A stretch of 64,000 bases of DNA from Rosistilla oblonga. Its GTDB lineage: Bacteria > Planctomycetota > Planctomycetia > Pirellulales > Pirellulaceae. The first letter of the stretch is position 1; each line of letters starts with the position of its first letter. Of this stretch, positions 4,847-44,610 are shown piece by piece. The stretch is from NCBI RefSeq assembly GCF_007751715.1, contig NZ_CP036292.1:5525339-5589338 (forward strand), in the 5' to 3' direction. The notes under the pieces are model-generated. The model was not told the DNA's origin. It did not search any database and was given only the letters and a program-made list of their open reading frames with translations. A program made the translations under genes and the position numbers.

Positions 4847-5272
4847 ATGAAACAGCTATTGGTCGTTGCCGGTTTGTTATGCTTGTTGTCGAGTACCGGC
4901 GGATGCGCGAAAGCGTGGACTCGAGGTGGCTGCAGTTCCGCCTCCTGCCAATGTGGACAAGGACAATGCAACAATGACGGATGCCAAAGTTGCCAGGGCC
5001 AGGGACAATGCTCCAGTGGCCAATGTGGCAATGGAGCCCGCGGAATGGGATCTTGCTGCCGCGGCGGAGTCAGCACCGGCTGCCGTCCGGCACCTCTCTC
5101 TTGGCAGCAGGGTGGAACCGACTACGGTCACAACCTGACTTACCCCAATGTGAAGAATGGCCAGATGCAGCAGAATCCGGGACCTCCGGCTGCTTCGACT
5201 GCTTACCCGTACTACACGACTCGCGGCCCGCGTGACTTCCTGAACGCCAATCCGCCGTCGATCGGGTACTAG
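4847..5272 (+). CDS. Cysteine-rich putative lipoprotein
   Basis: A 141-residue protein starting at ATG 4847, preceded by AAGGA. It has a type II signal peptide: MKQLL, a hydrophobic stretch, then LSSTGGC as lipobox. The mature N-terminal half is low-complexity Gly/Gln/Ser with about 12 cysteines, arranged as CxC, Cx3-4C and CC between about residues 20 and 80. The C-terminal half is Pro/Tyr/Asn-rich and ends NANPPSIGY. I do not recognise a family. The cysteines could bind metal or form disulfides in the periplasm or at the cell surface. The stop codon lies directly before the second palindromic element. Confidence 0.7.
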   Translation: MKQLLVVAGLLCLLSSTGGCAKAWTRGGCSSASCQCGQGQCNNDGCQSCQGQGQCSSGQCGNGARGMGSCCRGGVSTGCRPAPLSWQQGGTDYGHNLTYPNVKNGQMQQNPGPPAASTAYPYYTTRGPRDFLNANPPSIGY

Positions 5273-5428
5273 TTAAACGCAATACCGTTCAATGAAGCGT
5301 AGTGGACGAGGTTACGAGTCCTTTTGCATCAGCCCAAATCGCTGGGACTCGTAACCTCGTCCACTACATCCCGCCGCTAATTCTTTCGACGGTCCGAGGC
5401 TCCTTCGTAGAACGGTATTGTAATTAAA
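5273..5428. repeat. Palindromic MITE-like element, copy 2 (CAATACCGTTC-ended type)
   Basis: The core 5280-5420 is bounded by perfect 11-bp terminal inverted repeats, CAATACCGTTC and GAACGGTATTG, with a TTAA-containing extension outside each end (5273 and 5428). The inner arms 5299-5321 and 5345-5367 are a perfect 23-bp inverted repeat. The right half carries an extra block (CCGCCGCTAATTCTT..GACGGTCCGAGGCTCCTTCG) that is also in copy 3. The element lies between the Cys-rich lipoprotein gene and cysE. No ORF or transposase. It fits a non-autonomous element mobilised in trans. Confidence 0.85.
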
Positions 5429-5620
5429 CGCTCGGCCCTCACGCCGATCGCATGGAACAAAAGGGAGCCGTTTACTCAAACCTCTCCCTATGTTCCCTAA
5501 AAAGCCCGAACCCCGATACAATAAGGGTTCCGCTGTCATTGCCGCGAAACGCATCTCGCCGCAGGGCGGATGCCCCGAACGCGGATTTCGCAGTCCGCTG
5601 ATCTGAACAGGAAGATCTCG

Positions 5621-6589
5621 ATGGCTTCTGACTTTCGCCTCAAAGAACAACTGCCCGAACTGACCGATCAGATCGTCGCGACTTACACCGCCGACGACAA
5701 AATCAATCATCTGGGACACTGCCCGCTGCCCAGCTATGACGCGGTCCTCTCGATCGTCGAAGACATCAAAGAGATCATCTATCCGGGCTACCGTCGCCGC
5801 ACCGGGCTACACCGCGGCAACATCGGGTATCACGTCGGCAGCCTTGTCGACCGCTTGCACGACACGATGACAACTCAGATCGGTCGCGCACTACAGCACG
5901 AAGATCGCGTACGGCACAACCACGGCGATTGCGAATCGCAAGTCGATTACGAAGCCAAGGGACAAGCGATGGCAGTGGAGATGCTGAAACGCATCCCCGA
6001 CCTGCGAAGGATTCTCGCCACCGATGCCCAAGCCGCCTTCGATGGCGATCCGGCTTGCCAAACGACCGACGAGATCATCTTCTGCTATCCTGGCCTCGAA
6101 GCGGTGTCGGTCTTTCGCATTGCGAACCAGTTGCTGCAATTGGGCGTTCCATTCATCCCACGGATGATGACCGAACAGGCTCACATGAACACCGGTATCG
6201 ACATCCATCCGGGTGCAACGATCGGCGATCACTTTTTCATCGACCACGGCACCGGCGTGGTGATTGGTGAGACCTGCAACATCGGCAATCATGTGAAGCT
6301 GTACCAGGGCGTAACGCTGGGTGCCTTGAGCTTCCCAACCGACAGCGATGGCCATCTGATTCGCGGCCAGAAACGGCACCCAACCATCGAGGATCGCGTT
6401 GTCGTTTATGCCAACGCGACGATCTTAGGTGGCAAGACGGTGATCGGTCACGATACCGTGATCGGTTCGAGCGTCTGGGTGACCAGCAGCGTTGCTCCTC
6501 GCAGCACGGTCGTGCTCGAAAAACCGAAGCTTCGGGTGCGAGCCGAGATGCCCGACGACATGGCTCCCGAACTGAACTACCAAATTTAG
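5621..6589 (+). CDS. cysE: Serine O-acetyltransferase
   Basis: CysE transfers acetyl from acetyl-CoA to L-serine, giving O-acetylserine for cysteine synthesis. The protein has 322 residues. It starts at ATG 5621, preceded by AGGAAG; an in-frame ATG at 5570 has no such site. The first about 190 residues form an alpha-helical N-terminal domain longer than in E. coli CysE. The C-terminal half is a left-handed beta-helix of hexapeptide repeats beginning [20 protein letters not shown], which holds the Asp and His expected at the active site, followed by [11 protein letters not shown] and YQGVTLG. A Gly-rich flexible CoA loop and basic tail follow. No cysK is adjacent. Confidence 0.93.
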
Positions 6590-6667
6590 TCGTCCCGCTC
6601 GGAATCGAGACTTCGCGCCGACAACGGCTCGAAGCCGGCTGCCGCGACGCCGCGTGAGCTCACAGAT

Positions 6668-7204
6668 TCAGTCGGCGAGAACATCGCTGCTGAAGCCATC
6701 GAGCGATATCGGTTGCTGACCGATCCGGCCCAGTTCATCTTGGGAGCGACGGCTGCCCATGCTCGGCCATCCAGTGACTTCGGTCAGCTCGGGCATCAGT
6801 TCCAGCATTTGCTCGCGGAGCATCGTGACCAGCCGCTGCGTCCGCTCGTCGCCGCCGTGCTCGCACAGTGTCAGAATCGTCTTCATCATCCGGACCAACT
6901 TGGCCCGATGAGCGATCGATTGACTGAGCCGCATATCGGGCTCGACCAGTAGCTCAGCTAGCGGCACCTCCAACGCGTCGCGCCAACACATCAGCACCGA
7001 CATCGGCACATCGGTCGATGGCTTTTCCTGTTCGCGGAGATCGCGCATCGGAACTCCGCTGCGTCGCGAGACCGTCCGAATCGTGACGTTCTGCTGCTCC
7101 CGAACCTTTCGAATCCGGTGGAACGGCCCCTTCGGACGACTCGGCGTTGAACTCGATCCCGAGCCACAATAGCCATCGTCGTCGCTCCACGGAGCGCTAC
7201 CCAT
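6668..7204 (-). CDS. Putative HTH (XRE-like) DNA-binding protein
   Basis: A 178-residue protein. After a Ser/Gly/Pro-rich N-terminus, residues about 28-65 (RIRKVREQQNVTIRTVSRRS, then GVPMRDLREQE) resemble the first helices of a Cro/XRE helix-turn-helix. The segment DVPMSVLMCWRDALEVPLAELL follows, as in small planctomycete regulators. The C-terminal part is helical (RMMKTILTLCEHG, RLVTMLREQM) and may dimerise. No other domain is recognisable. The gene converges with cysE and stands alone; the 213 bp upstream holds no gene. The reading frame is secure, the DNA-binding role is inferred. Confidence 0.6.
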   Translation of the reverse strand: MGSAPWSDDDGYCGSGSSSTPSRPKGPFHRIRKVREQQNVTIRTVSRRSGVPMRDLREQEKPSTDVPMSVLMCWRDALEVPLAELLVEPDMRLSQSIAHRAKLVRMMKTILTLCEHGGDERTQRLVTMLREQMLELMPELTEVTGWPSMGSRRSQDELGRIGQQPISLDGFSSDVLAD

Positions 7205-7417
7205 GTTGATATGCCCGAGAGGGAGAATAGTAATCGCTCAACACCACGGGCAGATACCGACCATGCCACGTGCTGGCTAAAAGACGTTAGCCAGTCTTTG
7301 GATGATCGCTGAGGGGAAAGAGTTCCCCCCCGGCAGCAATTTTTTGCCAAGCCCAAGCATTCGCTTAGGCAGCATTCACGATTTGCTATCGCAGCGGCGG
7401 GCAGGATTGCCGCTTTG

Positions 7418-10400
7418 CTAAGCTTGCGGAGCGTGAGCCGGCTGAAGCAACTTGCCGCCGACAGCGACGTATTGCTTGGCCACTTCTTCGACCGTGTCGT
7501 GGATCTGTTGCTCGGTATGCTCCGACGTGATGAAGAATCGCAGCCGCGCCGCAGCTTCTTCGACCGCAGGATAGAGGATCGGTTGCACATTGATCCCCGC
7601 TTCGAACAACGCGTGCGACAGCTTGAGTGCCAACAGCGAATTGCCGGTGATCACGGGGACGACTGGCGTGCCACAGCTTTGACCGGTGTTCAATCCATGA
7701 GCCTGAGCCTCGCGGACGAACTGGTTGCTGCGTTCCTTCAGCCTTGCAACACGCTGCGGTTCGGCTTTCAGCACTCGCAGCGAAGCCAGCGCCGCCGCTG
7801 TCGATGCCGGTGGCAGACCGACGCTGTAGACAAAACCGGGAGCTGTGTACTGCAGGTATTCGACCAATTCAGCACAGCCGGCGATGTAGCCGCCGCAGCT
7901 GCCAAACGATTTGCTGAGCGTTCCCATCCAGATGTCGACCGATTTTGGATCGACACCAAAATGTTCAGCCATCCCGCGACCGGTCGCTCCCATCGTACCG
8001 ATGCTGTGCGCTTCATCGACCATCAGCAGGCACTTATGTCGCTGTTTGATTTCGACAAACTTGGGCAGGTCGGGGAAGTCGCCGTCCATGCTGTAAACGC
8101 CCTCGATGACCACCAACACGCGGCGATATTGCCCGCGGACCTCGGTCAGTGCTCGATCGAGCGCTTCGAAATCGTTGTGCTCAAACGGACGCCGGCGGGC
8201 TCCCGACAGGAGCGCTCCCTGGATGATACTGTTGTGCGACAGAGCGTCGTGCAAAATCAGATCGCCCGGCCCGACCAGGTGTCCGATCGTCGTCTCGTTA
8301 GTGCTATGACCGCCGACAAAAACGACCGAAGCTTCGACGCCAACCCAGTCGGCAATTTCGCGTTCCAGTTCGCCGTGGATCGTCTTGTTTCCCGAAACCA
8401 GTCGGCTGGCGCTGACGCTGGTTCCGAACCGCTCCACCGCCTCAGTCGATGCCCGCGTGACCTCAGGATCGCCCGACATGCCCAGATAGTTGTAACTGGC
8501 GAAGCTGATCAGATCGCGGCCGTCGATTCGCGTCGTATCGCGAGTCAGCCCTTCGTGGACGGTGAAGTATGGGTTGGGCAACCCGGTGATCATCAACGTC
8601 TGCTCGGTCTGCTTCAACCGCTTGTATTCGGGGAACAGAGCAAACGTGTAGTCTTCGGGTTTGACCTCCCGCAACGGAAGATCGGCTTGTTCCGAAGCCG
8701 CCGCGAGGATGTCGATCGGATTGCAATCCAGGTGCTCGCGAATCGCAAGCGCCACCTCGGCAATCGTCTCCATTTCCTGGAGCGCTTCGTCGGGGAAACG
8801 CCCGCCAAAAATCTTCTCCAGCGAATGCGCAATCTCGAGCCGTTCGAGGCTATCGAGTCCCAGATCGATCGCGATGTTGGTATCCTCGGACAGCTCGCCC
8901 GCTCGCTCTCGCGCGATCGCTTTGACTTCGCGAATCACAACCGAGACGATCTCTGGCGAAACCTGTTCGCTAGCCAATCGTGGACGCTTCGGCTGAGCGT
9001 GGCTCGTGCTACCTTGCAGCGGTTCGTGCGATTCCCATCGCGACCAACTGCCGACGATCTTCAGTTCGTTCGCCCGGATCATGTCGAGACATGCGTGTCG
9101 CTGGATCTTGCCGCTACTGGTCTTGGGAACCGAACCGGCGCGGACCATATAGATCGCGTCCGGCGGCAACTCGTGTTCGGCCGTAACCGCTTTGCGAATG
9201 CGATCGATCTCGGCGTTCCAATCGTGGTTTCGGATCCGCACGGTTTCGGCAACGATCATCAACTGCTCGCGCCCCATGAAGTCCATCGCCATCGCCGCAA
9301 CCGCACCGCTCTGCACGACATCCGATGCCTGCTCGCAGGTCAATTCGATATCTTGCGGGTAGCGATTGACGCCTCGCACGATGATCATGTCTTTCAGCCG
9401 GCCGGTGACATACAGTTGGCCTTCGTGCATGAAACCGAGATCGCCCGTTCGCAGGAAGGGCCCCTGCCCATCGGCGGTCGAGGCACCGAAGACGGCCCGC
9501 GTCTTAGCGTCGTCGTTCCAATAACCTTTGCCCACACTGGGGCTCTGCACCCAGACCTCGCCAATTTTCGCCGGTTCCAGAAGTTGGAAGGAATCGGGAT
9601 CGACGATCTCGACGCGTTCCCCAGGGATCACTTCGCCACATCCGACCAACGCTCGCGCGTCGTCATCGTCGGCAGTGACCTGCTTGACTTGTAAGTTGTT
9701 CAATCCATCGGCGGAGAAATGGCTGACGACCGGCTGCCCCTTTGGACCACCGGTGACGATCAACGTCGTTTCGGCCATTCCATAACAGGGTAGAAACGCA
9801 TCGCGGCGGAAGCCAGCGCTGGCAAACTTCTCTGCAAACGCATCGATCGTGGTCGGACGGACCGGTTCGGCACCGTTGAAGGCGACTTCCCAACCCGACA
9901 GATCCAAGGTGGCAATCTCTTCGGGCGTCACTTTTTCAACGCACAACTGATAGGCAAAGTTGGGGCCGCCCGAGATGGAGACCTTGTATTTGCTGATCAT
10001 CTGCAACCAGCGAACTGGTTTTTGCAGGAACGCCATCGGGCTCATCAAGACGTTCGGGCGACCGTAGAACAGCGGCTTCAGCACGCCTCCGACCAAGCCC
10101 ATGTCGTGATAGGTCGGCAGCCACGATGCACCCGATCCGGCGCGGGTTGGGGTGAAGGCGTGAACGATGTATTCGCAGTTGGCGATCAGATTGCCATGCG
10201 TCAGCATCACACCCTTGGGATCACCGGTCGACCCCGACGTGTATTGCAGCATCGCGATGTCGTTCGCCGCGATCGTCGGCATCTTCCAAGCATCGATGGC
10301 GGCATTGGAAGGGTCGTCGCTGGCAATCATCTCGATCGCCGAAAGGTCGGCGGCTTGATCTTTGTTGCTGTAGATCTGTTCGATCACCGAAGCGATCGAT

Positions 10401-10771
10401 AGCGCAAACCCGGCTCCAGAATCTTTGGAGATCGAATGGATTCGCGTCGCCTTGCGGTTGCGACGCGGCGGATAGGCGGGAACCGCGGTCGCACCGGCTG
10501 CGTGGCAGGCGAAAAACCCGACGACAAACTCCAGCCCCGGAGGATACAGCAGCAGCACGCGGCCGCCCGTCGCACCTCGCTGTTGCAGGTGACCGGCCAG
10601 CGCGCGGACCCGCTCCCACAACTGGGCATAGGTCAACATCGCATCGTCATCTTCACCGTCGGTATAATAGAAGGCCGGCGCATCGGGTTGCTGCTCGGTC
10701 CAATAGCGAAGGATCTCGACAAAATTTGAACGGGGCGGATCGTAGGGGGCGAAAAAGCTTTCCAGATTCAC
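7418..10771 (-). CDS. Fatty acyl-AMP ligase / acyl carrier / alpha-oxoamine synthase fusion
   Basis: A 1117-residue, three-module protein with a GTG start at 10771. Module 1 (about 1-580) is an AMP-binding ligase with YTSGSTGDPKGVM and WLPTYHDMGL, the hallmark of fatty acyl-AMP ligases that load acyl carrier proteins rather than CoA. Module 2 (about 605-685) is an acyl carrier domain with GLDSLERLE; Ser641 is the expected phosphopantetheine site. Module 3 (about 720-1105) is a PLP-dependent alpha-oxoamine synthase (AONS/SPT/KBL family) with SASRLVSG, DEAHSIG and TLSKSFG (Lys954). Together they could activate a fatty acid, hold it on the carrier and condense it with an amino acid to a 1-amino-2-ketone-type lipid, analogous to long-chain-base synthesis. 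No ketoreductase is adjacent. Confidence 0.9.
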   Translation of the reverse strand: MNLESFFAPYDPPRSNFVEILRYWTEQQPDAPAFYYTDGEDDDAMLTYAQLWERVRALAGHLQQRGATGGRVLLLYPPGLEFVVGFFACHAAGATAVPAYPPRRNRKATRIHSISKDSGAGFALSIASVIEQIYSNKDQAADLSAIEMIASDDPSNAAIDAWKMPTIAANDIAMLQYTSGSTGDPKGVMLTHGNLIANCEYIVHAFTPTRAGSGASWLPTYHDMGLVGGVLKPLFYGRPNVLMSPMAFLQKPVRWLQMISKYKVSISGGPNFAYQLCVEKVTPEEIATLDLSGWEVAFNGAEPVRPTTIDAFAEKFASAGFRRDAFLPCYGMAETTLIVTGGPKGQPVVSHFSADGLNNLQVKQVTADDDDARALVGCGEVIPGERVEIVDPDSFQLLEPAKIGEVWVQSPSVGKGYWNDDAKTRAVFGASTADGQGPFLRTGDLGFMHEGQLYVTGRLKDMIIVRGVNRYPQDIELTCEQASDVVQSGAVAAMAMDFMGREQLMIVAETVRIRNHDWNAEIDRIRKAVTAEHELPPDAIYMVRAGSVPKTSSGKIQRHACLDMIRANELKIVGSWSRWESHEPLQGSTSHAQPKRPRLASEQVSPEIVSVVIREVKAIARERAGELSEDTNIAIDLGLDSLERLEIAHSLEKIFGGRFPDEALQEMETIAEVALAIREHLDCNPIDILAAASEQADLPLREVKPEDYTFALFPEYKRLKQTEQTLMITGLPNPYFTVHEGLTRDTTRIDGRDLISFASYNYLGMSGDPEVTRASTEAVERFGTSVSASRLVSGNKTIHGELEREIADWVGVEASVVFVGGHSTNETTIGHLVGPGDLILHDALSHNSIIQGALLSGARRRPFEHNDFEALDRALTEVRGQYRRVLVVIEGVYSMDGDFPDLPKFVEIKQRHKCLLMVDEAHSIGTMGATGRGMAEHFGVDPKSVDIWMGTLSKSFGSCGGYIAGCAELVEYLQYTAPGFVYSVGLPPASTAAALASLRVLKAEPQRVARLKERSNQFVREAQAHGLNTGQSCGTPVVPVITGNSLLALKLSHALFEAGINVQPILYPAVEEAAARLRFFITSEHTEQQIHDTVEEVAKQYVAVGGKLLQPAHAPQA

Positions 10772-11174
10772 AGTGCAGGATTCCGTTACGCTTTGATGTT
10801 CATTGGGAGCAGCCGCGTGCCGACCTCGAGGTCAACAAATTAACGTCTCAGACGCGTGGGGCTGTGCTGCGTAAAAAGGGGTCGTGTTTTGGGATAATGA
10901 CAATTATGTCTCGCAATCCAAAACCACGGGAGGGCAGTGAATTCAATTCAACTCACGTGACAGCACGTTTGGGGGTATCAACGCACCGCAGTTGCCGTAT
11001 AGGAGATTCGCTTGGTCGGGAAAACTCGACCGCTACGGACCATCTAAAGATACACCATTTATCGGCAGCGAGGAGCAGTTTCTGCGGGCTGCAGCCTGTT
11101 TACCCCCGCTGCAATGCGAAACCTAGGCCTGATAAATCGCCTCGACAGCCCACTTCATCGTCACGATAGCCGGC
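10772..11174. other. Intergenic region upstream of the ligase fusion gene
   Basis: About 400 bp between two minus-strand genes: rarA ends at 11175 and the fusion gene begins at 10771. No convincing gene is present; a plus-strand frame through it has no ribosome-binding site and no recognisable sequence. The region must hold the promoter of the fusion gene, but I could not pick a convincing -35/-10 pair. Confidence 0.5.
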
Positions 11175-12491
11175 TTACTTTGCCTGTTTCAGCTTTTCGC
11201 GAATCTTCACCAACCGCTCAGCCAATTCCTGCTCAAATCCTCGCCCCGAGGGCTCATAAAATTCGCGGTCGATCCCCAAATAGTCCATCGCGGCAACACC
11301 ATCAGCATGATTATGGGCGTACAAATAGCCCTCGCCATGCCCCAAATCTTTTGCTCCCTGGTAGTGCTTGTCCCGCAGCGCCACCGGGACGGGAACCAAG
11401 TCTCCCTGCCGGACCTCGGTTCGAGCGTTGCCGATCGCCGTGGTTGCCGAGTTACTCTTGGGAGCCAACGCGAGATAGATCACGGTTTGGCTGAGCGTTA
11501 GTTGACACTCGGGCAGCCCGATAAATTCGCAAGCCTGCATCGCAGCGACCGCCAGCGGCAGCGCCTGCGGATCGGCATTGCCGACGTCTTCGCTTGCCAA
11601 GATGACCAACCGACGACATAAAAAGCGAACGTCTTCGCCCCCTTCGAGCATCCGAGCCAACCAATACAGCGACGCATCGGGATCGCTGCCGCGGAGACTT
11701 TTGATCAGCGCGCTCGCCATATCGTAATGCTCGTCTCCGGTGCCATCGTACCGAATCGATTTCTGTTGCAGCGATTCGCTCGCCAACTTCAGATCGAATC
11801 GGACCGGCCGATCGGAACTGCTCAGCACCCCGATCTCCAAAGCCCCCAGCGCTTTCCGAGCGTCCCCTTCGACCATCGTGGCGATATATTGCAACGCCTC
11901 GTCGTCCGCCTCGATCGGAATATCCCCTAGGCCGCGCTGTGGCGTTCGGATCGCCCGCTGCAGCAGATCGACGATCTCCGCGTTGCTTAGCGGTTCGAAC
12001 TGGAAGACTTGCGAACGGCTGATCAACGCCGCGTTGATCGCAAAATAGGGATTGCTGGTCGTCGCCCCAACAAGCGTCACAATCCCCGCTTCGACGTCGG
12101 GCAACAGCGCGTCCTGCTGCGATTTGTTGAAGCGATGGATCTCATCGATAAACAGAATCGGCCGCGGCGCACCTGCCGATACGTCGTCGCGAGCCTGCGC
12201 CAAGACCTCGCGGAGCTCTTTCACTCCCGACAGTACAGCGCTTAACGAATGGAAGCGACCACCGGTTTCGTGAGCCAACAGTTCGGCAAGCGTCGTCTTC
12301 CCCGTACCCGGCGGGCCAAAGAACAAGATCGAACCGAGCTGCCGCGCGTCGATCATCCGACGTAGCAACTTACCCTCTCCAAGCAACTGCTCCTGGCCGG
12401 CGAATTCGGTCAGCTGACGCGGACGCATCCGCGCCGCAAGCGGTTTGTTGGCTTCCAAATGGTCCGCTTCGGCTTCATCAAACAGCGACAT
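11175..12491 (-). CDS. rarA: Replication-associated recombination protein A (RarA/MgsA AAA+ ATPase)
   Basis: A 438-residue clamp-loader-like ATPase acting at stalled replication forks. The N-terminus (MSLFDEAE, RMRPRQLTEFAGQEQLL) is typical. Walker A is GPPGTGKTT (59-67), Walker B is ILFIDEIHRFNKSQQDALLP, sensor 1 lies in LVGATTSNPYF, and the arginine-finger segment is ALISRSQVF. The C-terminal part has the family's tetramerisation region (ALPLAVAAMQACEFIGLPE) and the LVPVPVALRDKHYQGAKDLGHGEGY segment. Length is as usual for the family. The gene lies 3' of fusA on the same strand but is separated from it by 830 bp holding the tandem repeat array. Confidence 0.95.
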   Translation of the reverse strand: MSLFDEAEADHLEANKPLAARMRPRQLTEFAGQEQLLGEGKLLRRMIDARQLGSILFFGPPGTGKTTLAELLAHETGGRFHSLSAVLSGVKELREVLAQARDDVSAGAPRPILFIDEIHRFNKSQQDALLPDVEAGIVTLVGATTSNPYFAINAALISRSQVFQFEPLSNAEIVDLLQRAIRTPQRGLGDIPIEADDEALQYIATMVEGDARKALGALEIGVLSSSDRPVRFDLKLASESLQQKSIRYDGTGDEHYDMASALIKSLRGSDPDASLYWLARMLEGGEDVRFLCRRLVILASEDVGNADPQALPLAVAAMQACEFIGLPECQLTLSQTVIYLALAPKSNSATTAIGNARTEVRQGDLVPVPVALRDKHYQGAKDLGHGEGYLYAHNHADGVAAMDYLGIDREFYEPSGRGFEQELAERLVKIREKLKQAK

Positions 12492-12692
12492 CAGATCGTT
12501 TCATAGAGGGTTCGAGGAACGCGAACTCACCGCCGCCGGGGAACACGCTGGCCAGCAAGCAACTTGCACAGCAAACGCGCCGTGCCTGGGCGACGGATCG
12601 CACCCTCAAGTATCTCAGATGTCGGCGGGCAAAGTAACTGCACCCGACCGCGCAAATCGCGTTTACGTAGCGCCACATCCAAATCGATCCGA

Positions 12693-13312
12693 CGCGCGGC
12701 CCGATGGGCACGCGGCTAAACGAAGCAACAGCTGCAGCCCACTCGTTTAACCGCGTGGGCAACGCCCCGCGCGTCTCGAGCACAAGTCAAACCAACCCGC
12801 CCGCCAGGCGTCACAGCGTCGCATCCACACAACAAACAACGCGCGGCCCGGTGGGCACGCGGCTAAACGAAGCAACAGCAGCAGCCCACCCGTTTAACCG
12901 CGCGGGCAACGCCTCGCGCGTCTCGAGCACAAATCAAACCAACCCGCCCGCCAGTCGTCGCAGCGTCGCATCCACACAACAAACAACGCGCGGCCCGATG
13001 GGCACGCGGTTATACGAAGCAACAGCTGCAGCACACTCGTTTAACCGCGTGGGCAACGCCCCGCGCGTCTCGAGCACGAGTCAAACCAAGCCGCAGGCCA
13101 GTCATCGCAGCGTCGCATCCACACAACAAACAACGCGCGGCCCGATGGGCACGCGGCTAAACGAAGCGCCAGCTGCAGCCCACTCGTTTAACCGCGTGGG
13201 CAACGCCCCGCGCGTCTCGAGCACGAGTCAAACCAAGCCGCAGGCCAGTCATCGCAGCGTCGCATCCACACAACAAACAACGCGCGGCCCGGTGGGCACG
13301 CGGTTAAACGAC
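12693..13312. repeat. Tandem array of 147-bp units, 4 full copies plus a partial fifth
   Basis: Units begin at 12693, 12840, 12987 and 13134 with the same CGCGCGGCCC; a truncated fifth starts at 13281 and stops at about 13312, ten bases before the fusA stop. The period is exactly 147 bp. Each unit holds an imperfect inverted repeat, GGGCACGCGGCTAAACGA against TCGTTTAACCGCGTGGGC, around a loop with CAGCTGCAG, so each can fold into a long hairpin. Units 3 and 4 share variants (AAGCCGCAGGCC) not present in 1 and 2, which indicates stepwise duplication. The array fills most of the gap between fusA and rarA. Confidence 0.95.
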
Positions 13313-13321
13313 GATTGGAAA

Positions 13322-15412
<2,091 letters not shown>

Positions 15413-35692: not shown

Positions 35693-37052
35693 CAACAACT
35701 CCGTTGCCATCGCTACGCGGCGGCAGATGCTGCAAACCACATCCTTCGGCTTTGGGTTTCTGGCGTTGCAATCGCTGTGCCAGCAAGCCGTCGCTGCAGC
35801 TCCGGCAGCATCCGCCACAGCTGGCATCACCACTAGCGTCCCGCGGGCGCGTCGCGTGATCTTTTTGTGCATGAGCGGCGGGCCGGCGCAGATGGACACG
35901 TTCGACTACAAACCGCAAACGGGAAAGAAGAAACACGCCGGGTCGGTCTTCGATTTTAGCCAGCATGGCGAAAATGGAATCTGGGTCTCGGAGCTGTTGC
36001 CCGAAACGGCCCGGCATATCGATCGGATGTGTATCATCAACGGGATGCATGCCGATACGGGAAACCACGCCCAATCGTTTCTCCAACTGCACACCGGCGA
36101 ACGACTCCGCAAACGTCCCAGCATGGGATCTTGGATCTCTTACGGGTTGGGGACCGAAAACGAAAACCTGCCAGGCTTTATCAGCCTCAACGCATCGAAG
36201 CCCTCGGTCTATTCCAGCAGCTTCCTGCCGACAGAGTTCGAAGGGACGCCGATCGGCACCAATGGCGAGGACATGTCCCAAGCGACGATCCGCGATATCG
36301 CCAGCCAGCACCTGCCCCACTCGGCCCGGCGGCAGCAGATCGATTTTGTCCAAGCGATGAACCGTCAGCATGCCACCGGGCGCGTCGATCAGTCCAATCT
36401 GAACGGCGTGATCGAATCGATGGAACTCGCTTTCCGGATGCAAAGTAGCGCTCCCGATCTGTTGGACCTTTCCAACGAAACCGAAGCGACGCTACAGCGT
36501 TACCGCGTTGGCAAAAAGTTGTCCGTCGGCACCTGTCGTCCCACCGACTTCGGGCGGCAGTGTCTGCTGGCCCGACGCTTTGCCGAAGCGGGAGTGCGAT
36601 TCATCGAGGTGAATCATGGCGGCTGGGATCAACATAAGAATCATCGTCGCGACCTGAAAGCCAATTGTGAAACCATCGACGCGCCGATCGCTGCGTTGTT
36701 GGAAGATCTCGCCGCGCGAGGAATGTTGGAAGACACGCTGTTGGTTTGGGGAGGCGAATTTGGCCGGCCGGGTCTGGTTCCCGACAACGGTAAAGACGAA
36801 ACCGGTCACAATCATCGTGGGTTCACATTTTGGTTGGCCGGCGGTGGCGTCAAGGCTGGATACGTTCACGGCCGAACCGACGACACCGGTTCCCGAGCCG
36901 TAGAAGGCAAGGTTCACTTCCGCGACCTACACGCAACGGTCCTGCACGCATTGGGGCTCGATGCCAATCAAATGACCTACCAACACGCCGGCCGCGCCCA
37001 CCGACTGACCGGCCCCGAAGGTGGCCAAGTCATCCACGATCTGTTTGCTTGA
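35682..37052 (+). CDS. DUF1501 domain protein, Tat-exported
   Basis: A 456-residue protein whose start overlaps the previous gene by 11 bp, so the pair is translationally coupled. The N-terminus has a twin-arginine signal ([19 protein letters not shown]...). DUF1501 belongs to the alkaline-phosphatase/sulfatase-like superfamily. Visible are [56 protein letters not shown] and the C-terminal [18 protein letters not shown]. The PSCyt1/DUF1553-DUF1501 pair is the standard planctomycete arrangement. The enzyme activity of the family is not established. Confidence 0.93.
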
Positions 37053-37182
37053 AACGCGATGGCGTTCTAAACGCCAAACTTCCGGAGTTTGCCCCAGTCG
37101 AGCGCCCGGTCCGTCGAAGCATGGCCACAAGGGGCGGGCCCACTTTTATCGATCGACAACGGTATCATAATCCCTCCGCGTC

Positions 37183-39999
37183 TCACGGCGACCGATCGAG
37201 GGTCCTTTGCAACGCCGAATTCAGCCCGGGATCGTCGAGCTTCGCAAGGGCTGCTTGCAGAACGCTGTGTGTGGTGGAAGGCTGAAATACGGAGTGGGTC
37301 ATATCTTTGTCCGTGGGAGCGCCCAAGGCGTAACGACCGATGAGCCGTCCATTCTCACGAAAGGTGAAACCACAGGGTGCAGGACGCGTCGGGCAGAGGA
37401 CATCGAACAACTCCGGTCCGTTCATGTTGCTGCCATAGATTGAGCTACCAACACTCCGTACCGTTTGCGATTGCCAATCGATCGGCGACGCAAAGTTCGC
37501 GATCGGATGGCGCGAGCGATCGACCGTGAAACAGCCCGACAAGACTGGCTGGAAGATCTGTGGCCGATAGTCGACGGGAGCCAATTGAACAGCGACCAAG
37601 CCGCGAGCACCGCGAATGTGATAGATCGCAGAGCCGGTCTCATAGGCATCCAACGGCTCGGTCACCGACTTCGGGTAATCCGTCGATTCCAACGTGATCT
37701 CTCGCGTTTGACCGTCACCCAATGTGAGCGTCGCGCTGACCGCCGGCTTCGCCTTATTGTCCACCTGCCCGATCAATTTCACAGGACCGATCTGCAGGAC
37801 ATCCAGCGGCACCTGCTTCGACTTCCCCGATTCATCTCGCACCCTTGCCACACATGCATATCCTTTTTCGATGTACCCAGCAATGCTATCCGGTCCAAGC
37901 AGTAACGCCTGATCTTCGTGGACGGCAACAACCGCAGTCGTCAGCGGATAGATTCCACCATGTTGGCTGCCGATGTTGTCTTTGCCTGGATTGATGTAGC
38001 AGTCGATCCGCACCAACGAAGCCGGATCAACTCCTGTACTGTTCGGCGTGAGCCAAGTTTTCGCTAGCTCGACGAAGTCCGCAAGCCGCTTCTGTGTGAG
38101 CAAGCCCGTTCGCGCACCAATCAACTGGCGGTCCTTCATCAACACAAAATGTGTCGCGGCGGGCGCAGTAACCTTCCGCCACTTCCGCTGCGGTAGTTCG
38201 ACAAACACCACCGATGCGGCTTCGGTCACCGATTTCGCGACGGGCAACATTTGAACGCTGATGTCGGAATCGTTGCTGAACATCACCAGCGCCGTGCCGA
38301 CCTCGGGCAACTGTTCCAGGAAATCGTTCCAGTCTGGGAGTTTCTCCTCGGCAACAATCTGCGTTTTCTGTTCAGCCAGATGCCGTTTCGTTTCCCATTT
38401 GTCCGACAGCGTCGAAGTTTTGTCGGGCTGCACGCGACTGCATTCCAACAGCGTGACACGTTTGCCGGGGACAAACGTTTGAGGCCGAAAGTCTTTGTCG
38501 GCGATGGCAGAGCCGGAGTTCGCCATGCAGATTCTCAGGCTGGATTCGTCGACCTGTAGGAGACCGTGTTGCGTCTCTGCATCCCCGTTGGGGTCGACAA
38601 CAAGTTCCACCTGCCAAACGGGACTTGCATCGTTTTTTATGCGAATTTGAATCGGACTGCCTACCTCCTCCGATCTCGAGACGCAACGCAATATTTGTCC
38701 ATCGATCACCAGCTCAAGTTGAGGTTCGGTATCCGCCTGGTCTTCCCCGGCAATGTTATGAACATCGACGTGCCACCGTCCTTGAAGCATCCGCAGCGCC
38801 TGCTGATTACTTTCCGCAGGCGGGACCGAAGCATACGGCATCGATGGCAATCCGTTGCCGTTTGCCTGCGGGCTTGAAGGCAGGACGCTTGGACTGTTGC
38901 TGGGTGCGATGGGGGATGGTTGCGAAGGTTGGAGCGTTGTTGCACCAGCGAACTCCATCAGCTCCGCGTCGGATCCAATTTGCGAGATCTTCCACCGCCC
39001 ATCCTCTAAGTGCAATTCAACTGATTCCGTTTTGCAAACCGTTTGAACGATGGGCGAAGATTTCTGAGTTGCTGTCGCACGAACTCCGTCGATCACAAGC
39101 TTCCATTCGGAGGCAACCGTTTGCTGGTTGTCATTTTCGTTGGCATCCATTGCACTCACGGCATCGAGTATTGCGGCACAGAACACTCTGGGATCGGCCA
39201 GCATCCCACTCGATTGGCGCAACACCTGAGCATACTCACCGGGTGCGAATTGAGGTGGTTTCACGGGCGTTCCATCCGGCCCGATCGCCCCCAATTGAAA
39301 AAGGACCGGATGCAACATACTGGCCAGCTTTCCCATTGCGGCAACCGATTCGGATGATGGATTGGAACGCATGAAGCCGTTGCAACTTTCAACGATCGAT
39401 TTGATCTGTTGCGTCTCCTCGGGCGACTGCCCCGTGGCTTCCATTAATCCCAGCATGTTGCCCATTATTGTCACCGACTGCAGCAGCATTCCGGCCAGCA
39501 ATTCCGCCCCCTCGTCAGAGAACAGCCCGACGTAGGCTTCGTAATCCTTCTCTTTCAAACAACGCTCCATTGCCTCCAGAACAGTCTGGGGAGTTCGAAA
39601 TTGCTCGGGAACGTCCAGTAACATCTTGACGCGGTGCGCGATGATATCTTCTGAATTCGATTGCCGCATTTTGATCTGAGCGCGGCTTGCAGCAATCTTC
39701 GCCTCAGCTTCGGCCAGTTGCGCTTTGTGCAGTTTCTGTTGCAGATCAAACGATTCCTGAACCGCGTCGATCAATTGCTGCGTGAGTGCTTCGAATTCCG
39801 CAAGCTGTGTATCATCGGCCTGTCGTGCCACCACCAACTGTCCGGCAATTTGATTTGCCAGCGCGTTGGAGGCAGCAACTTGCGTTTGCAAAGCACCGAT
39901 GGATCCAGGCTGCTTCGAGTCCTGAGGCGAATCCGATTGGGCAAAGCAAACTGTTGCACCGATCAATATCAGCAGAGAGGTTAATGTGATGTTTCGCAT
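37183..39999 (-). CDS. Large secreted protein sharing a domain with the adjacent kinase
   Basis: A 938-residue protein with signal peptide MRNITLTSLLILIGATVCFAQ. A coiled-coil region covers about 40-112. Residues about 136-350 form a domain (TPQTVLEAMERCLKEKD, LFSDEGAELL, SSGMLADPRVF, LEDGRWKISQI) that aligns with the periplasmic part of the kinase encoded just upstream. Residues about 400-520 (MLQGRWHVDVHNIAGED...) resemble the lipocalin-like TIGR03067 domain of planctomycetes. The C-terminal 400 residues are not recognised. It begins 3 bp after the kinase stop, so it is the last gene of the sigma factor-kinase operon. It probably senses or modifies something outside the cytoplasm; the function is unknown. 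Confidence 0.75.
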   Translation of the reverse strand: MRNITLTSLLILIGATVCFAQSDSPQDSKQPGSIGALQTQVAASNALANQIAGQLVVARQADDTQLAEFEALTQQLIDAVQESFDLQQKLHKAQLAEAEAKIAASRAQIKMRQSNSEDIIAHRVKMLLDVPEQFRTPQTVLEAMERCLKEKDYEAYVGLFSDEGAELLAGMLLQSVTIMGNMLGLMEATGQSPEETQQIKSIVESCNGFMRSNPSSESVAAMGKLASMLHPVLFQLGAIGPDGTPVKPPQFAPGEYAQVLRQSSGMLADPRVFCAAILDAVSAMDANENDNQQTVASEWKLVIDGVRATATQKSSPIVQTVCKTESVELHLEDGRWKISQIGSDAELMEFAGATTLQPSQPSPIAPSNSPSVLPSSPQANGNGLPSMPYASVPPAESNQQALRMLQGRWHVDVHNIAGEDQADTEPQLELVIDGQILRCVSRSEEVGSPIQIRIKNDASPVWQVELVVDPNGDAETQHGLLQVDESSLRICMANSGSAIADKDFRPQTFVPGKRVTLLECSRVQPDKTSTLSDKWETKRHLAEQKTQIVAEEKLPDWNDFLEQLPEVGTALVMFSNDSDISVQMLPVAKSVTEAASVVFVELPQRKWRKVTAPAATHFVLMKDRQLIGARTGLLTQKRLADFVELAKTWLTPNSTGVDPASLVRIDCYINPGKDNIGSQHGGIYPLTTAVVAVHEDQALLLGPDSIAGYIEKGYACVARVRDESGKSKQVPLDVLQIGPVKLIGQVDNKAKPAVSATLTLGDGQTREITLESTDYPKSVTEPLDAYETGSAIYHIRGARGLVAVQLAPVDYRPQIFQPVLSGCFTVDRSRHPIANFASPIDWQSQTVRSVGSSIYGSNMNGPELFDVLCPTRPAPCGFTFRENGRLIGRYALGAPTDKDMTHSVFQPSTTHSVLQAALAKLDDPGLNSALQRTLDRSP

Positions 40000-40002
40000 G
40001 TT

Positions 40003-42513
40003 CTACTCGTCCGTTTGATGGCTGAAGGTCGGTTCCATCGACTCGATGCGATCGGAGAGATCGTTCACTTGCATGAGAATCGCACTGGGCGCAAGTTCAA
40101 CTGGAAATTCCCAGTCGACTTTGGCATCGATGATCGGCGAAGGTTGAATCGAAAAGTCATCGCCAGCGACATTTCCAGATTCATCCGGCGACTCGCCAGC
40201 TTCTGCGGCGTTGCCCCATGGTTCGTGCAGCAACCATGTATCGCCGAATCGCTTGAGTCCCATGCGGGTATTGTCTTCGATGTTCACCGACCATACGGAA
40301 TCGCCTTCGTATTCGATGCGATACCGTCGTTTTTTCGGCGGCGTCTTGCTTTGCTCGTCTTCGTTTGTCTCCGACCACCGTGCAAAGTCTTTCACAAATT
40401 GACGTGGGTTCTTTAGCATCGTGGGAGACGTCGCGATCAGTGTCACTTGGTCGTTGGTCAACGCATCACGCTTCACGGGATCATTGTCGCTGTAGTATGA
40501 CGCAGCAGCTTGTGACAACGCTGCCGATGCGATCGCAGGCGGATTGTCAATCGTTGCGGCTTGCAACATCGTCAGTAATTCATCCATCGATTGTTGCTGC
40601 TTAGGGTCTCGCATGAGTAGCTTTCCCTCCGGTTCGCCCGGAAAAATATCACCTTGCAACATCATGGCTGTCATCAGATAGGAGGCGGCTAATCCATTGA
40701 TCACTTCGTCGGAATAGCAGTCGATGCAGCCCATCGAATCGCCGCGCAACTGACAGTCCGCAAAGTGTTGCATCAGGATTTCGGGCGTAGCGAACTTTGG
40801 ACGTTCCGGCGCGATTGAACCGCCGGCCCCGGCTTCACTCTCTCTCGCTTCGTCAGCTCGAGACACATCGTTCGCCGCAGACGGGAAGAACTGCTGTGAT
40901 ACGCCATCCGTCGCGCGATCACGTTGGGCTGAAGCACTGCTTACCGAATCGTAGTCATCAAAAATGACGCCACGTAGGTTTTCGGATCTCTCGGTTCGGT
41001 GGATCATGACAGTTTCCGCCACGCCACGTTTCAGAGATACCGATTCCCTATCAATCTGAATCATCGGGAAGTCGCCATCCAATTGAACCACGTACTCGCC
41101 CGCCGCGATGCGAGTCGAAGTACCCGACCGGGAAACCGTCAACGAATCGACGATCTTGTCGCCTCGCATGACCCGAATGGGCACGTCGTCCGCATTCGAT
41201 TCGATCGTCAGCGTCCCCTTGTTCATTTCCAGCACGATGAGCACGCCGGCAACGACCAGCGAAAATGCGGCGAATCCGATGAAGGCCAGTTTGCTCAGCG
41301 GAGTTCTGCCCTTGCCGCAGTTATGCGTTGACGGGCGCCGTCGTGAAAACTGCGCTACAATTTCTGGAAGCGGCGTTGTTGTAGGATGCTGGACATGTGC
41401 AAGACAGTCTTCGAGCAATCCTGCGACTTCCGCGGCGGAATCGAATCGATCTTCGCGCGACTTCGAAAGCAGCTTTAACACAAACTGATCCAACCACTCG
41501 GGAATGTTGGAATTGAGTTCGCGAATGGGGCGAGCTGTATCGTCGGTAATCCGGCGGAGGACCGCGTAGCTGGTTTCTGCGCGAAACGGCGGATGCCCGG
41601 TGCAGAGTGCGTAGAGCACACAGCCGAGACTGAACAAGTCGCTGCGACCATCGATCGCTTCGCCTCGCACTTGTTCGGGAGACATATAGTGCGGCGTGCC
41701 AGGATGAAAACCGCTGCGTGTCAAACAGGCATCGTCCTCGGCGCGGGCCAAACCAAAATCGGTCAACAGCGCTCGATCAACCCCTTCGTCGAGCAGGATG
41801 TTCGATGGTTTTACATCGCGATGAATCAAACCTTGAGCATGCGCGGCGGCGAGCCCCTTGGCGGTCTGCATGCCGATGCGAAGAACTTCGCAAACGTCCA
41901 GCGGGCCGTCGCGATCGAGTCGTTGTTGCAGCGAACCGCCCGCGATGTACTTCATCACGAGAAATGGCGGCTGTTGGGGAGTATCACCCGATTCAACATT
42001 ATGAATTGCAACGACATGTTCATCCACGACCGCTGCCGCCGCACGCGATTCGCGAGCGAAGCGTTTCCTCGCCGATCCATTTTCCGCCAGATAAGGAGCC
42101 AGTAACTTGACCGCCACGGGGCGATTCAATTCGGTATCGTAAGCTTTGAAGACAACGCCCATCCCGCCGCTGCCAATCAAGCGTTCCACGTCGTAGCGGC
42201 CAATACGACCCAGCATTTCGGGATGCGATGGAGGCGAAAGGAGCGTCTTGAGCATCGATTCGTTCCAGGCGATCGGGCTGCGATCCCAAGGCATTCCAAC
42301 TTGGACCATGTCGGCGCAATCATCGCTGTCCGCGAGAACCTCGCGAACCTCCTGCCACAATCCCGCTCCGGCTGCTGTCTGTTCCAGACGCGTCTGACAG
42401 GCCGGACAGGTTTCGACGTGTTGTAGCGCCGCCAGATATTCTCGACTGGATTCATGGCCTTTGATCAGGCACTCCAACCCAGCATCGCTGCACTGGTTTT
42501 CACTCAGCACCAT
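40003..42513 (-). CDS. Transmembrane Ser/Thr protein kinase with N-terminal zinc-finger motif
   Basis: An 836-residue, membrane-anchored Hanks-type kinase. The N-terminus has HVETCPAC (His32, Cys36, Cys39), the H-x3-C-x2-C pattern of zinc anti-sigma domains. The kinase domain (about 105-370) is complete: GSGGMG loop, Lys136, HRDVKPSN (Asp233), DFG (Asp252), GTPHYMSPEQ. One membrane helix (about 408-430) leads to a PEGA-like segment and a periplasmic domain from Thr576 (TPEILMQHFADC...) that recurs in the next gene product. The start overlaps the ECF sigma gene by 10 bp. Kinase-ECF pairs are known in planctomycetes; the kinase may restrain or activate the sigma factor. Confidence 0.93.
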   Translation of the reverse strand: MVLSENQCSDAGLECLIKGHESSREYLAALQHVETCPACQTRLEQTAAGAGLWQEVREVLADSDDCADMVQVGMPWDRSPIAWNESMLKTLLSPPSHPEMLGRIGRYDVERLIGSGGMGVVFKAYDTELNRPVAVKLLAPYLAENGSARKRFARESRAAAAVVDEHVVAIHNVESGDTPQQPPFLVMKYIAGGSLQQRLDRDGPLDVCEVLRIGMQTAKGLAAAHAQGLIHRDVKPSNILLDEGVDRALLTDFGLARAEDDACLTRSGFHPGTPHYMSPEQVRGEAIDGRSDLFSLGCVLYALCTGHPPFRAETSYAVLRRITDDTARPIRELNSNIPEWLDQFVLKLLSKSREDRFDSAAEVAGLLEDCLAHVQHPTTTPLPEIVAQFSRRRPSTHNCGKGRTPLSKLAFIGFAAFSLVVAGVLIVLEMNKGTLTIESNADDVPIRVMRGDKIVDSLTVSRSGTSTRIAAGEYVVQLDGDFPMIQIDRESVSLKRGVAETVMIHRTERSENLRGVIFDDYDSVSSASAQRDRATDGVSQQFFPSAANDVSRADEARESEAGAGGSIAPERPKFATPEILMQHFADCQLRGDSMGCIDCYSDEVINGLAASYLMTAMMLQGDIFPGEPEGKLLMRDPKQQQSMDELLTMLQAATIDNPPAIASAALSQAAASYYSDNDPVKRDALTNDQVTLIATSPTMLKNPRQFVKDFARWSETNEDEQSKTPPKKRRYRIEYEGDSVWSVNIEDNTRMGLKRFGDTWLLHEPWGNAAEAGESPDESGNVAGDDFSIQPSPIIDAKVDWEFPVELAPSAILMQVNDLSDRIESMEPTFSHQTDE

Positions 42514-43112
42514 TGCGTCACCTCGTGTTGCTTAACGACTTCTTTCAGTCGACTCATCACTCGCGATCGGCCGACATAGATGGTGCCAACGCTGACTTCC
42601 AGTCGCCTCGCCGTCTCTGCGACCGACATGCCTTCAACCTGAGTCATCCAAAACGCTGACCACGTCGTTTCCGCCACCTGACACTTGACTTGTGCGGCGG
42701 CCCAACGAAAGACCTCTCGGCGATACTCCTGATCAAACTGGCTTGAGACTTCCGATGCCGGTGCCGGAACCTCGGCCAACATCGCGGCTGCGTCTTCGTC
42801 ACCGGTCGCCAATGTCCGTGTCCCCCGACGCGTTAAATAATTTACGGCTGCATTGCGAGCGATCGTCAGCAGCCAGGCACGAAATCCGCCGCGATCGCTT
42901 CGATCGAGCCACTGGGAGACCGACCGCGCGATCGCAGAGAAGACCTCCTGCACCAAGTCATCCGCGTCGGCCGGTTGCATTCCCTGGGCGAAGGCTAATC
43001 GCCGGATCAGCGGAGTGTAGATAGCAACCACTTCATCCCAAGCCGCCACGTCCGCCGCGTCGGGCAGACGCAGGATCAAGCTTGCGCGCGTTTCGGGTGG
43101 ACTCGAATGCAT
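42504..43112 (-). CDS. ECF-type RNA polymerase sigma factor (kinase-associated)
   Basis: A 202-residue sigma-70-family factor with regions 2 and 4 only. Region 2 has DADDLVQEVFSAIARSVSQW and GGFRAWLLTIARNAAVNYL. Region 4 has VEGMSVAETARRLEVSVGTIYVGRSRVMSRLKEVV, a helix-turn-helix for the -35 element. No separate anti-sigma gene is present; the kinase gene starts inside its last codons (10-bp overlap). It is probably activated, or released, through phosphorylation or the kinase's zinc-finger region. First gene of the three-gene operon. Its promoter should lie in the 505-bp gap upstream. Confidence 0.95.
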   Translation of the reverse strand: MHSSPPETRASLILRLPDAADVAAWDEVVAIYTPLIRRLAFAQGMQPADADDLVQEVFSAIARSVSQWLDRSDRGGFRAWLLTIARNAAVNYLTRRGTRTLATGDEDAAAMLAEVPAPASEVSSQFDQEYRREVFRWAAAQVKCQVAETTWSAFWMTQVEGMSVAETARRLEVSVGTIYVGRSRVMSRLKEVVKQHEVTQWC

Positions 43113-43617
43113 GCAAAGTGACTCGCGAACTTTGGACTTTGTGCCAACTATTTAAAGCTGTTGTGGACCTCTCAACAGGTAGACACTGCCGATCGAAGAA
43201 TCTTGCACGTTCGGCGTAAATTATCGCAACACGCGGTGTTGCGATGCGGCAAGTCTCTGTCTCAAACGGGCCTGTCACAGGAAATCGTAACACATCGCAT
43301 GCAGATGGGATTCACGCTGCCCACCTCTCGCGGAAACGCCGCGTTAACCACAACGAAGTCTGAAATCGCGTCCCGCTTCGATCTCACATCGACTTCGTTT
43401 GGCGGGCATCGACGTTTTTGGGTAAACTGCTTGCCAACCGAGAGAGACGGAAGCGTTTACGGCGGAGATACAATTTCTGTGTTGCGCAATCGTGTAACGA
43501 CGCGAACATGGTGAGTTGCTTGGGGTGCTGTTGCCAGCAACGTCTGCGTGTGGCTGCCAAGTTTGTTTGCGTCGCCTTCGGTGTTTGGTAGAGCATCTTT
43601 AAAGAGGACATCAAATC
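43113..43617. other. Divergent intergenic region, ECF operon / metallophosphoesterase
   Basis: About 500 bp between the leftward ECF operon and the rightward phosphoesterase gene. It should hold both promoters. No gene is convincing. Near 43200-43275 the sequence GCGTAAATTATCGCAACACGCGGTGTTGCGA contains a 10-bp inverted repeat (TCGCAACACG / CGGTGTTGCGA), a possible operator or hairpin. Confidence 0.45.
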
Positions 43618-44610
43618 ATGAAGCGTCGGACCTTCTTCGGACTCGGTACTGCGGCGGCGGGGCTACCGCTAATCAACGCAAGCGAAACGCGCGCTGCACA
43701 GCCCGTGGGCAAAAGCACTCGAGGCTCGTTCTCGGTCGACGGCAACTTGGTTCGTTTCTACTCAGCCGACATCCGCAAGCCGCTCCGCGTCCTTGTCGCT
43801 GCCGACACGCATCTGTTTCTAGACGACGAGCGTGGGAAACCGTTCCACGAATTCAGCGGCCGGATGGCTGGGGCTTACAACACAACGCGGCATTTCAAAA
43901 CCGGTGAAGCAACCAACCCACAAAACAGCTTCACTCAGATTATCGAACGGGCACAGGAACGGAACGTCGATCTACTGGCATTGGTAGGCGACATCTTCAG
44001 TTTCCCATCCGAAGCTGCCATCGAATGGGTTGCAGATCAACTCGCCGCGTCAAAGCTCCGCTACTGTTACGTCGCCGGAAATCACGACTGGCACTACGAA
44101 GGCATGCCGGGATCAATCGATGAACTGCGTGCGACATGGATTGAGAGGCGATTGAAACCGCTCTATCAAGGAAACAATCCGTTGATGTCGGCTTACGATA
44201 TCGGCGACGTCCGTTTTCTGGCGATCGACAATTCGACTTACGAGATTCTTCCGGAGCAGTTGGATTTCTTCCGCGCGCAGGCCGAAACAGGCAAACCATT
44301 GGTTCTAACGGTTCACATTCCGATGTTTGCCCCCGGTCGCCCGGTCGGATTTGGCTGTGGACATCCCGACTGGGGAGCGAACTCCGATCGAAATCACAAA
44401 ATCGAACGGCGGCCTCAATGGCCAACGACGGGCCACACCCAAGCGACACTCGATTTCCACCGAGACGTCTTCGCGACACCCAATCTACTGGGGATCTTCG
44501 CGGGTCACACCCATCGCAGCTCCGTGGATGTCATCAACGGCATCCCGCAATTTGTCACCGATGACAATGCAAGTGGAGCTTTTATGGACGTCGAACTATT
44601 GCCTGCGTAA
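43618..44610 (+). CDS. Tat-exported metallophosphoesterase
   Basis: A 330-residue calcineurin-like phosphoesterase. The N-terminus MKRRTFFGLGTAAAG is a twin-arginine signal. The metal-site motifs occur in order: VAADTHLF (Asp, His), LVGDIF (Asp), VAGNHDWH (Asn, His), LTVHIPMF (His) and FAGHTHRSSVD (two His). An Asp in the first motif followed by Thr-His rather than xHxD is a small variation. The substrate could be a phosphodiester or phosphomonoester in the periplasm. Start ATG 43618 is preceded by AAAGAGGA, a good ribosome-binding site. Monocistronic. Confidence 0.88.
   Translation: MKRRTFFGLGTAAAGLPLINASETRAAQPVGKSTRGSFSVDGNLVRFYSADIRKPLRVLVAADTHLFLDDERGKPFHEFSGRMAGAYNTTRHFKTGEATNPQNSFTQIIERAQERNVDLLALVGDIFSFPSEAAIEWVADQLAASKLRYCYVAGNHDWHYEGMPGSIDELRATWIERRLKPLYQGNNPLMSAYDIGDVRFLAIDNSTYEILPEQLDFFRAQAETGKPLVLTVHIPMFAPGRPVGFGCGHPDWGANSDRNHKIERRPQWPTTGHTQATLDFHRDVFATPNLLGIFAGHTHRSSVDVINGIPQFVTDDNASGAFMDVELLPA

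Follow-up and report, generated by a model that had tools for sequence, protein, structure and literature searches.

Several described systems, compared here through excerpts of the cited sources, resemble parts of a three-gene operon in a 64,000-nucleotide stretch of the planctomycete Rosistilla oblonga (contig NZ_CP036292.1, positions 5,525,339 to 5,589,338; this whole stretch is called the window, and operon coordinates refer to it), which encodes an extracytoplasmic function (ECF) sigma factor, a transmembrane Ser/Thr kinase and a secreted protein named P0001. CnrH-CnrY-CnrX from Cupriavidus metallidurans likewise pairs an ECF sigma factor with a membrane-bound anti-sigma factor that a periplasmic sensor controls; as described in the excerpt, it differs in having no kinase and in that CnrX is membrane-anchored and metal-binding (PMC7689651). 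In the control of type VI secretion, a periplasmic partner (RtkS or TagR) activates the transmembrane Ser/Thr kinase PpkA; by that description the target is Fha instead of a sigma factor, and the excerpt mentions no anti-sigma finger (PMC6082577). In the ECF43 pairs PknT-EcfP and PknS-EcfK, the genes for ECF factor and Hanks-type kinase adjoin (PMC8999054 section 3.4; PMC13147305); the sigma factors of this group lack the DAED motif, whereas the window factor keeps DADD and is accompanied by a kinase finger and a secreted partner. Groups ECF59, 61, 62 and 217 also have ECF and kinase genes as neighbours, in planctomycetes among others; they are grouped under phosphorylation, and their description in the excerpted part mentions no third gene, tail or anti-sigma finger (PMC8999054). 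Finally, Class I anti-sigma factors (ZAS/ASDI) display an N-terminal H-x3-C-x2-C motif, a membrane helix and an adjacent ECF gene (PMC7406223), but in the window protein a kinase domain stands between finger and membrane helix.

The operon is composed of three near-contiguous open reading frames (ORFs), all on the minus strand. The sigma factor gene (42504-43112, 202 amino acids; Sigma70_r2 3.7e-13, TIGR02937 9.2e-19) overlaps by 10 bp the kinase gene (40003-42513, 836 amino acids; Pkinase 2.9e-44), whose product has an anti-sigma-like N-terminus, and a gap of 3 bp precedes the gene for P0001 (37183-39999, 938 amino acids), which starts with a hydrophobic stretch. Gene order, overlap and spacing agree with those given in an earlier note on this DNA. 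We propose that the operon encodes a split transmembrane receptor for the ECF sigma factor with the secreted partner as its sensor, and give this proposal an even chance. Like CnrYXH, it includes an extracytoplasmic third component (export being predicted) encoded together with the sigma factor and its anti-sigma-like kinase.

The kinase kept its catalytic motifs (glycine loop GSGGMGVV, VAVK, HRDVKPSN of the form HRDxKPxN, and DFG) and a membrane helix recognised by hydropathy only (residues 409-427, 41233-41289), so that from its sequence it appears to be a Hanks-type transmembrane kinase. The helix is part of a conserved transmembrane and juxtamembrane region without Pfam match (residues 405-504, 41002-41301). 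The N-terminal region (residues 1-60, 42334-42513) resembles zf-HC2 and ZAS domains and displays the H-x3-C-x2-C motif already pointed out in the earlier note, here HVETCPAC at residues 32-39; next to an ECF gene, such a finger would assign the protein to Class I (ZAS). It was found in 46 of 47 full-length kinases with a partner, the exception being L097 (L numbers denote loci, G numbers genomes), where the histidine is missing. Matches to zf-HC2 at E<=0.1 were obtained for 21 of 26 aligned rows (best 2.8e-8), which were preselected for the motif and hence are not independent. Among four scanned membrane proteins that occupy the place of the kinase in other loci, L149 matched an NCBIfam anti-sigma model below its cut-off (E 6.9e-6), and no match to this model was seen in L126, L130 and L154. 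An economical reading of these sequences would be that a kinase domain was inserted into an anti-sigma factor.

The feature common to the third genes is a helical hairpin (coiled coil), identified in P0001 by profile and model (residues 34-128, 39616-39900) and predicted with high confidence in an AlphaFold model of residues 24-350 (mean predicted local distance difference test, pLDDT, 92.5). A search of 199 genomes of the family with P0001 gave matches in 25, including its own genome, many of them short, and many weak ones were confined to the coiled coil around residues 30-150. Large relatives were found in L031 (same genus) and in L032-L036, in every case directly following a same-family kinase (incomplete at the contig end in L034 and L035), and also in L037, there inside the reading frame of the kinase itself. 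The order ECF gene, kinase gene, coiled-coil protein gene was displayed by 14 of 18 loci around coiled-coil matches (L089-L106); in L095 the contig was cut within the kinase, in L091 and L092 only the coiled coil was present at a contig edge, and L102 gave no coiled-coil or hairpin match. A hairpin profile (A4) built from 23 hairpins matched at E<=0.001 in at least 104 of the 199 family genomes and at least 39 of 246 genomes sampled from the phylum, the own genome being counted in both totals and the best candidates per genome being scored (at most 26 and 21, respectively).

Forty family and 20 phylum matches, mostly from the upper part of the lists, supplied further loci. Altogether, 85 hairpin ORFs were present in 84 of 86 examined loci (all but L102 and L109), 55 of them after a kinase gene, 24 after a gene for another transmembrane protein and six unassigned (the one in L146, a doubtful second ORF in L160, and four lying at the edge of a contig). 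In 73 of the 85 cases an ECF gene was located upstream on the same strand within 4.5 kb, and gaps of -257 to 238 bp separated the genes of 47 full-length kinase/partner pairs. Twenty more loci, a second batch taken from 20 of 21 successive lower rows of the match list, raised the number of hairpin ORFs with inspected neighbours to 105; 14 of the 20 followed a kinase, L174 and L176 followed a transmembrane end cut at the contig start, L184 followed a transmembrane protein and an ECF gene, L185 had nothing upstream, and L189 and L190 belonged to a different setting, described below. The survey suggested in the earlier note thus recovered the three-gene order as a recurrent arrangement, with the proviso that another membrane protein takes the place of the kinase in the 24 cases mentioned.

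Judged solely by an N-terminal hydrophobic stretch, 77 of 83 hairpin proteins are predicted to be exported. In six scanned proteins neither Pfam nor NCBIfam matched the hairpin above a cut-off, and the tetratricopeptide (TPR) repeats of one of them, the third protein of L105, fell outside the hairpin. Two possible relatives were rejected. The best PDB sequence matches of the hairpin were to ribosomal protein L29 (E 0.0027), taken as a convergent hairpin; a Foldseek search of the PDB with the model of hairpin and following domain gave no match at E<=0.001 and no CnrX among the best 50 matches listed. Two unusual ORFs were noticed as well: one in L160 (4610-5479) matches the hairpin profile as well as that for ECF factors, owing to a fusion, a deletion or a faulty assembly, and a hairpin ORF in L208 of G178 (4028-5629) overlaps in another frame an 83-residue kinase-like fragment, perhaps a decayed kinase gene.

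The putative docking element for the hairpin is the C-terminal periplasmic tail of the kinase (residues 801-827, 40033-40113), a tryptophan followed by an amphipathic helix. Partnered kinases and many of the other transmembrane proteins share the consensus W-[DEN]-x-x-[ILV]-D-x-x-[LI]-x-x-L-x-x-x-[IL]-x-x-L. Gibbs sampling on 49 kinase tails yielded a motif of 20 columns, which was scored against shuffles (p<0.05). Beforehand, L123 and L152 had been excluded as truncated or wrong ORFs and L159 and L142 for their doubtful upstream gene, and near-duplicates had been removed, which reduced the kinase set from 53 to 49 and the non-kinase set from 22 to 21. Outside the learning set, the motif was detected in 14 of the 21 non-kinase tails and, for the second batch, in 13 of the 17 tails that could be used, as opposed to 2 of 23 kinases without a partner.

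A census of three complete genomes started from 33 kinase ORFs taken from better-scoring matches and their surroundings, of which 29 were kept and four, without finger or ECF neighbour, were dropped. A hairpin partner (profile E<=0.1) accompanied 11 kinases of 485-758 amino acids (ten of them <=553), eight of which displayed the tail at p<0.05; of these eight, L089, L127 and L036 had been used in learning (L127 possibly via a near-duplicate) and L172 and L188 belonged to the second batch. Among the 18 without detected partner (551-1576 amino acids, 16 of them >=755), three displayed the tail. Related operons without the third gene had been named in the earlier note as evidence against its proposal, and no such gene was detected for 18 of 29 ECF-kinase pairs; 16 of these 18 kinases are long and have a built-in ectodomain. 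Inspection by eye added three side observations: one unpartnered kinase with tail (L205) is followed by a 613-residue protein with a signal-like start and a short coiled stretch missed by the profile; the non-kinase tails of L126, L128, L130, L154, L156 and L158 contain two tandem segments, each a W-helix or a helix; and the kinase tails of L032, L033, L035, L089, L095, L097, L117-L119, L131 and L132 display a second conserved LWD motif after the helix.

In the proposed split receptor, the kinase would be its own anti-sigma factor: the N-terminal finger, we infer, holds the sigma factor at the membrane, the kinase domain being placed between this finger and the membrane helix. P0001 would act as sensor, its hairpin docking on the periplasmic tail helix while its other modules may read the periplasm, perhaps sensing misfolded envelope proteins or peptide ends that have become exposed. 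Changes in P0001 would alter the pairing or clustering of kinase tails and thereby lead to kinase autophosphorylation, and the activated kinase could then modify either the finger or the sigma factor, with sigma release as the outcome.

P0001 and the kinase also have a homologous domain that was named TPE here (kinase residues 566-772, 40198-40818; P0001 residues 131-345, 38965-39609). The motifs described in the earlier note are present: TPE at kinase residue 576 and TPQ at P0001 residue 136, CYSDE and LFSDE, SPTMLKNPRQF and SSGMLADPRVF, and closing DTW and GRW, respectively. BLASTP of the full-length proteins was weak (E 0.013, 21% identity over 168 amino acids). The comparison by hidden Markov model (HMM) profiles that the note had called for gave a significant match (hhalign of nine kinase copies with seven secreted copies, E 4.6e-17 over 192 columns). 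Among 1153 ORFs, a kinase-only profile matched the P0001 copy (E 2.2e-5) and a secreted-only profile the kinase copy (E 7e-8), and the pairwise alignment scored 10.6 standard deviations over 1000 shuffles, none of which reached its score. In the model, TPE is composed of helices followed by a four-stranded part. An assignment to NTF2/SnoaL domains obtained weak matches only (Foldseek E 0.93; 3bb9 by sequence, E 0.2) and is left open.

The remaining part of P0001 consists of three further modules. Residues 402-509 (38473-38796) are TIGR03067-like but did not reach the curated cut-off (28.3 bits vs 40.15; E 1.6e-6). A model of residues 530-938, built from only seven sequences (pLDDT 81.4; five models spanning 58 to 81), displayed a thioredoxin-like domain at about residues 557-650 (38050-38331; structure match to thioredoxin fusion 3dxb, E 1.8e-5) and an HtrA/DegP-like trypsin fold at about residues 662-905 (37285-38016; Foldseek 8f0a, E 2.0e-7, probability 1.00, TM-score 0.37 for query and 0.49 for target). 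By sequence, thioredoxins were the best PDB matches of this C-terminal part, none with an E value below 0.22, and HtrA proteins were absent from the matches of that search. CxxC occurred in no row of the alignment and GxSGG in none of seven, nor was any histidine invariant; both modules are without recognisable catalytic motifs. The HtrA-like fold, present in a putative partner of an anti-sigma-like protein, recalls the periplasmic proteases DegS and HtrA, from which P0001 differs by lacking GxSGG and an invariant histidine and by its fusion to the hairpin and other modules. A non-catalytic HtrA-like sensor on an anti-sigma-like kinase resembles the DegS-RseA pathway.

These modules vary among third proteins. 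Seven large ones were scanned, of which four contained Secretin_N and one each HEAT, SecDF_P1_head and DUF4214. A profile search of contigs with the C-terminal module found four loci, one of them new (L109, from a metagenome-assembled genome of Fuerstiella sp.). In L037, a single frame of 2441 amino acids (6664-13989) combines a kinase of this family with a pair of TIGR03067-like domains and with the thioredoxin/HtrA-like module; it gave no hairpin match and is a one-piece version of the kinase/partner system. In L109 (810-4004), an ECF gene and a 299-residue finger-kinase ORF are followed by the thioredoxin/HtrA-like module in an overlapping frame, again without hairpin match; the frame of another fused kinase may have been interrupted here, or the assembly may be wrong. 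The window kinase is a hybrid that combines a built-in ectodomain containing TPE with the tail and a partner.

The shared domain had led the earlier note to suggest that P0001 acts on the kinase through it, by homotypic pairing or by competition for one ligand. In favour of this, TPE is present in kinase and partner alike at two loci, the window operon and L031, but by profile check these two loci of one genus are the only ones with TPE on both sides: the domain was found in 6 of 85 partners and 2 of 55 of their kinases, with no match in the other 79 and 53, and it is present in seven kinases without hairpin partner (L070, L071, L072, L077, L078, L080 and L081, found partly via TPE similarity). 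As a general basis of the partnership, TPE-TPE pairing was rejected on this distribution, and for the window itself an action of P0001 via TPE is considered quite improbable. From its occurrence TPE appears to be a shuffled module, and its double occurrence in this genus most likely reflects an exchange of modules between split and one-piece receptors; an additional TPE-TPE contact may exist there. The note's three-part switch without a separate anti-sigma protein accordingly survives in part: an ECF/kinase/secreted unit recurs, the finger on the kinase is anti-sigma-like and no anti-sigma gene lies between, but the shared domain does not provide its general basis. A different objection concerns the tail, a short amphipathic segment that occurs in membrane proteins other than kinases too. 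It might serve the kinase or anti-sigma factor for homotypic dimerisation, the hairpin binding elsewhere (peptidoglycan or outer membrane) and being co-encoded for other reasons. Co-variation of tail and hairpin did not exceed its controls (partial Mantel 0.26, vs 0.20 for finger-hairpin and 0.26 for tail-finger), as this alternative would allow. The rarity of the motif in partnerless kinases, including those of the census, and the retention of the hairpin in third proteins whose other modules vary argue the other way, and we regard it as rather unlikely.

It is also conceivable that direct phosphorylation by the kinase switches the sigma factor on, as in PknT-EcfP and PknS-EcfK, and that the finger is a docking site only. 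The kinase motifs are intact, and ECF groups adjoining Ser/Thr kinases are predicted to be regulated by phosphorylation (PMC8999054 section 3.4). However, the absence of the acidic motif in sigma2.2 underlies the EcfP mechanism (PMC8999054 section 3.4), and unlike EcfP-type factors the window sigma factor keeps DADD there, so that the loss of DAED typical of ECF43 was not observed. Among 48 kinase-linked ECF factors the acidic pattern matched 35, 18 of which displayed DADD or DAED. The median identity to the window factor was 42% for the 48 kinase-linked factors, as compared with 31% for 24 factors of loci with another membrane protein, so that the two kinds of locus differ in their ECF factors. 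Direct phosphorylation with a purely docking finger is judged improbable.

Several observations nevertheless weigh against the split receptor with a docking tail. The co-variation result just given is one of them. The window finger scored weakly against zf-HC2 (E 0.071, below cut-off), and only 9 of 24 non-kinase transmembrane proteins preceding hairpin genes displayed H-x3-C-x2-C. Upstream ORFs were chosen by a simple rule (distance, predicted transmembrane helix, finger and length), so that single cases may be wrong. In L189 and L190 the hairpin gene stands beside a membrane protein gene with no ECF or kinase gene detected nearby, and the same-genus genome G006 gave neither hairpin nor P0001 match, so that members of the genus may differ in whether they have the operon. 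The tail rule had exceptions: seven of 21 non-kinase and four of 17 second-batch tails failed, two of 23 partnerless kinases passed, and in the census 3 of 11 partnered kinases were without a significant tail and 3 of 18 unpartnered ones had it. Fisher tests against partnerless kinases (p 9.9e-5 for non-kinase tails, 2.8e-5 for the second batch) overstate independence since the tail sequences, and the batches phylogenetically, are related, and their controls were kinases of different build. In the protease-like module one column is histidine in five of seven rows, so that loss of catalysis is deduced mainly from the missing GxSGG.

Outside the coding regions, no RNA family match was found around the operon (36900-43700) at E<=0.5. 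The ECF gene is preceded by 505 bp that share 97.0% identity with the same-genus relative; because the ECF gene itself is similarly identical (96.9%), special conservation of this upstream part was rejected.

Taken more broadly, the operon would represent a planctomycete three-component class composed of an ECF sigma factor, a membrane anti-sigma factor with a W-helix docking tail and a secreted hairpin sensor. In many lineages a kinase domain would have been inserted between finger and transmembrane helix, and sensor modules would move between the kinase ectodomain (one-piece systems) and the partner (split systems). We hold arguments for and against such a class, widespread and so far undescribed, to be about evenly balanced. 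Literature searches found neither hairpin nor tail nor three-gene class described; they did not cover the main ECF classification papers, so that novelty is not established. ECF groups other than ECF43 that adjoin Ser/Thr kinases keep DAED or a similar acidic motif and may differ from EcfP, their mechanism being left open (PMC8999054 section 3.4). A finger kinase with a secreted partner offers a testable answer, in which the kinase is itself the anti-sigma factor and the sensor possibly a separate protein, and the hairpin profile could help to detect and classify such systems.

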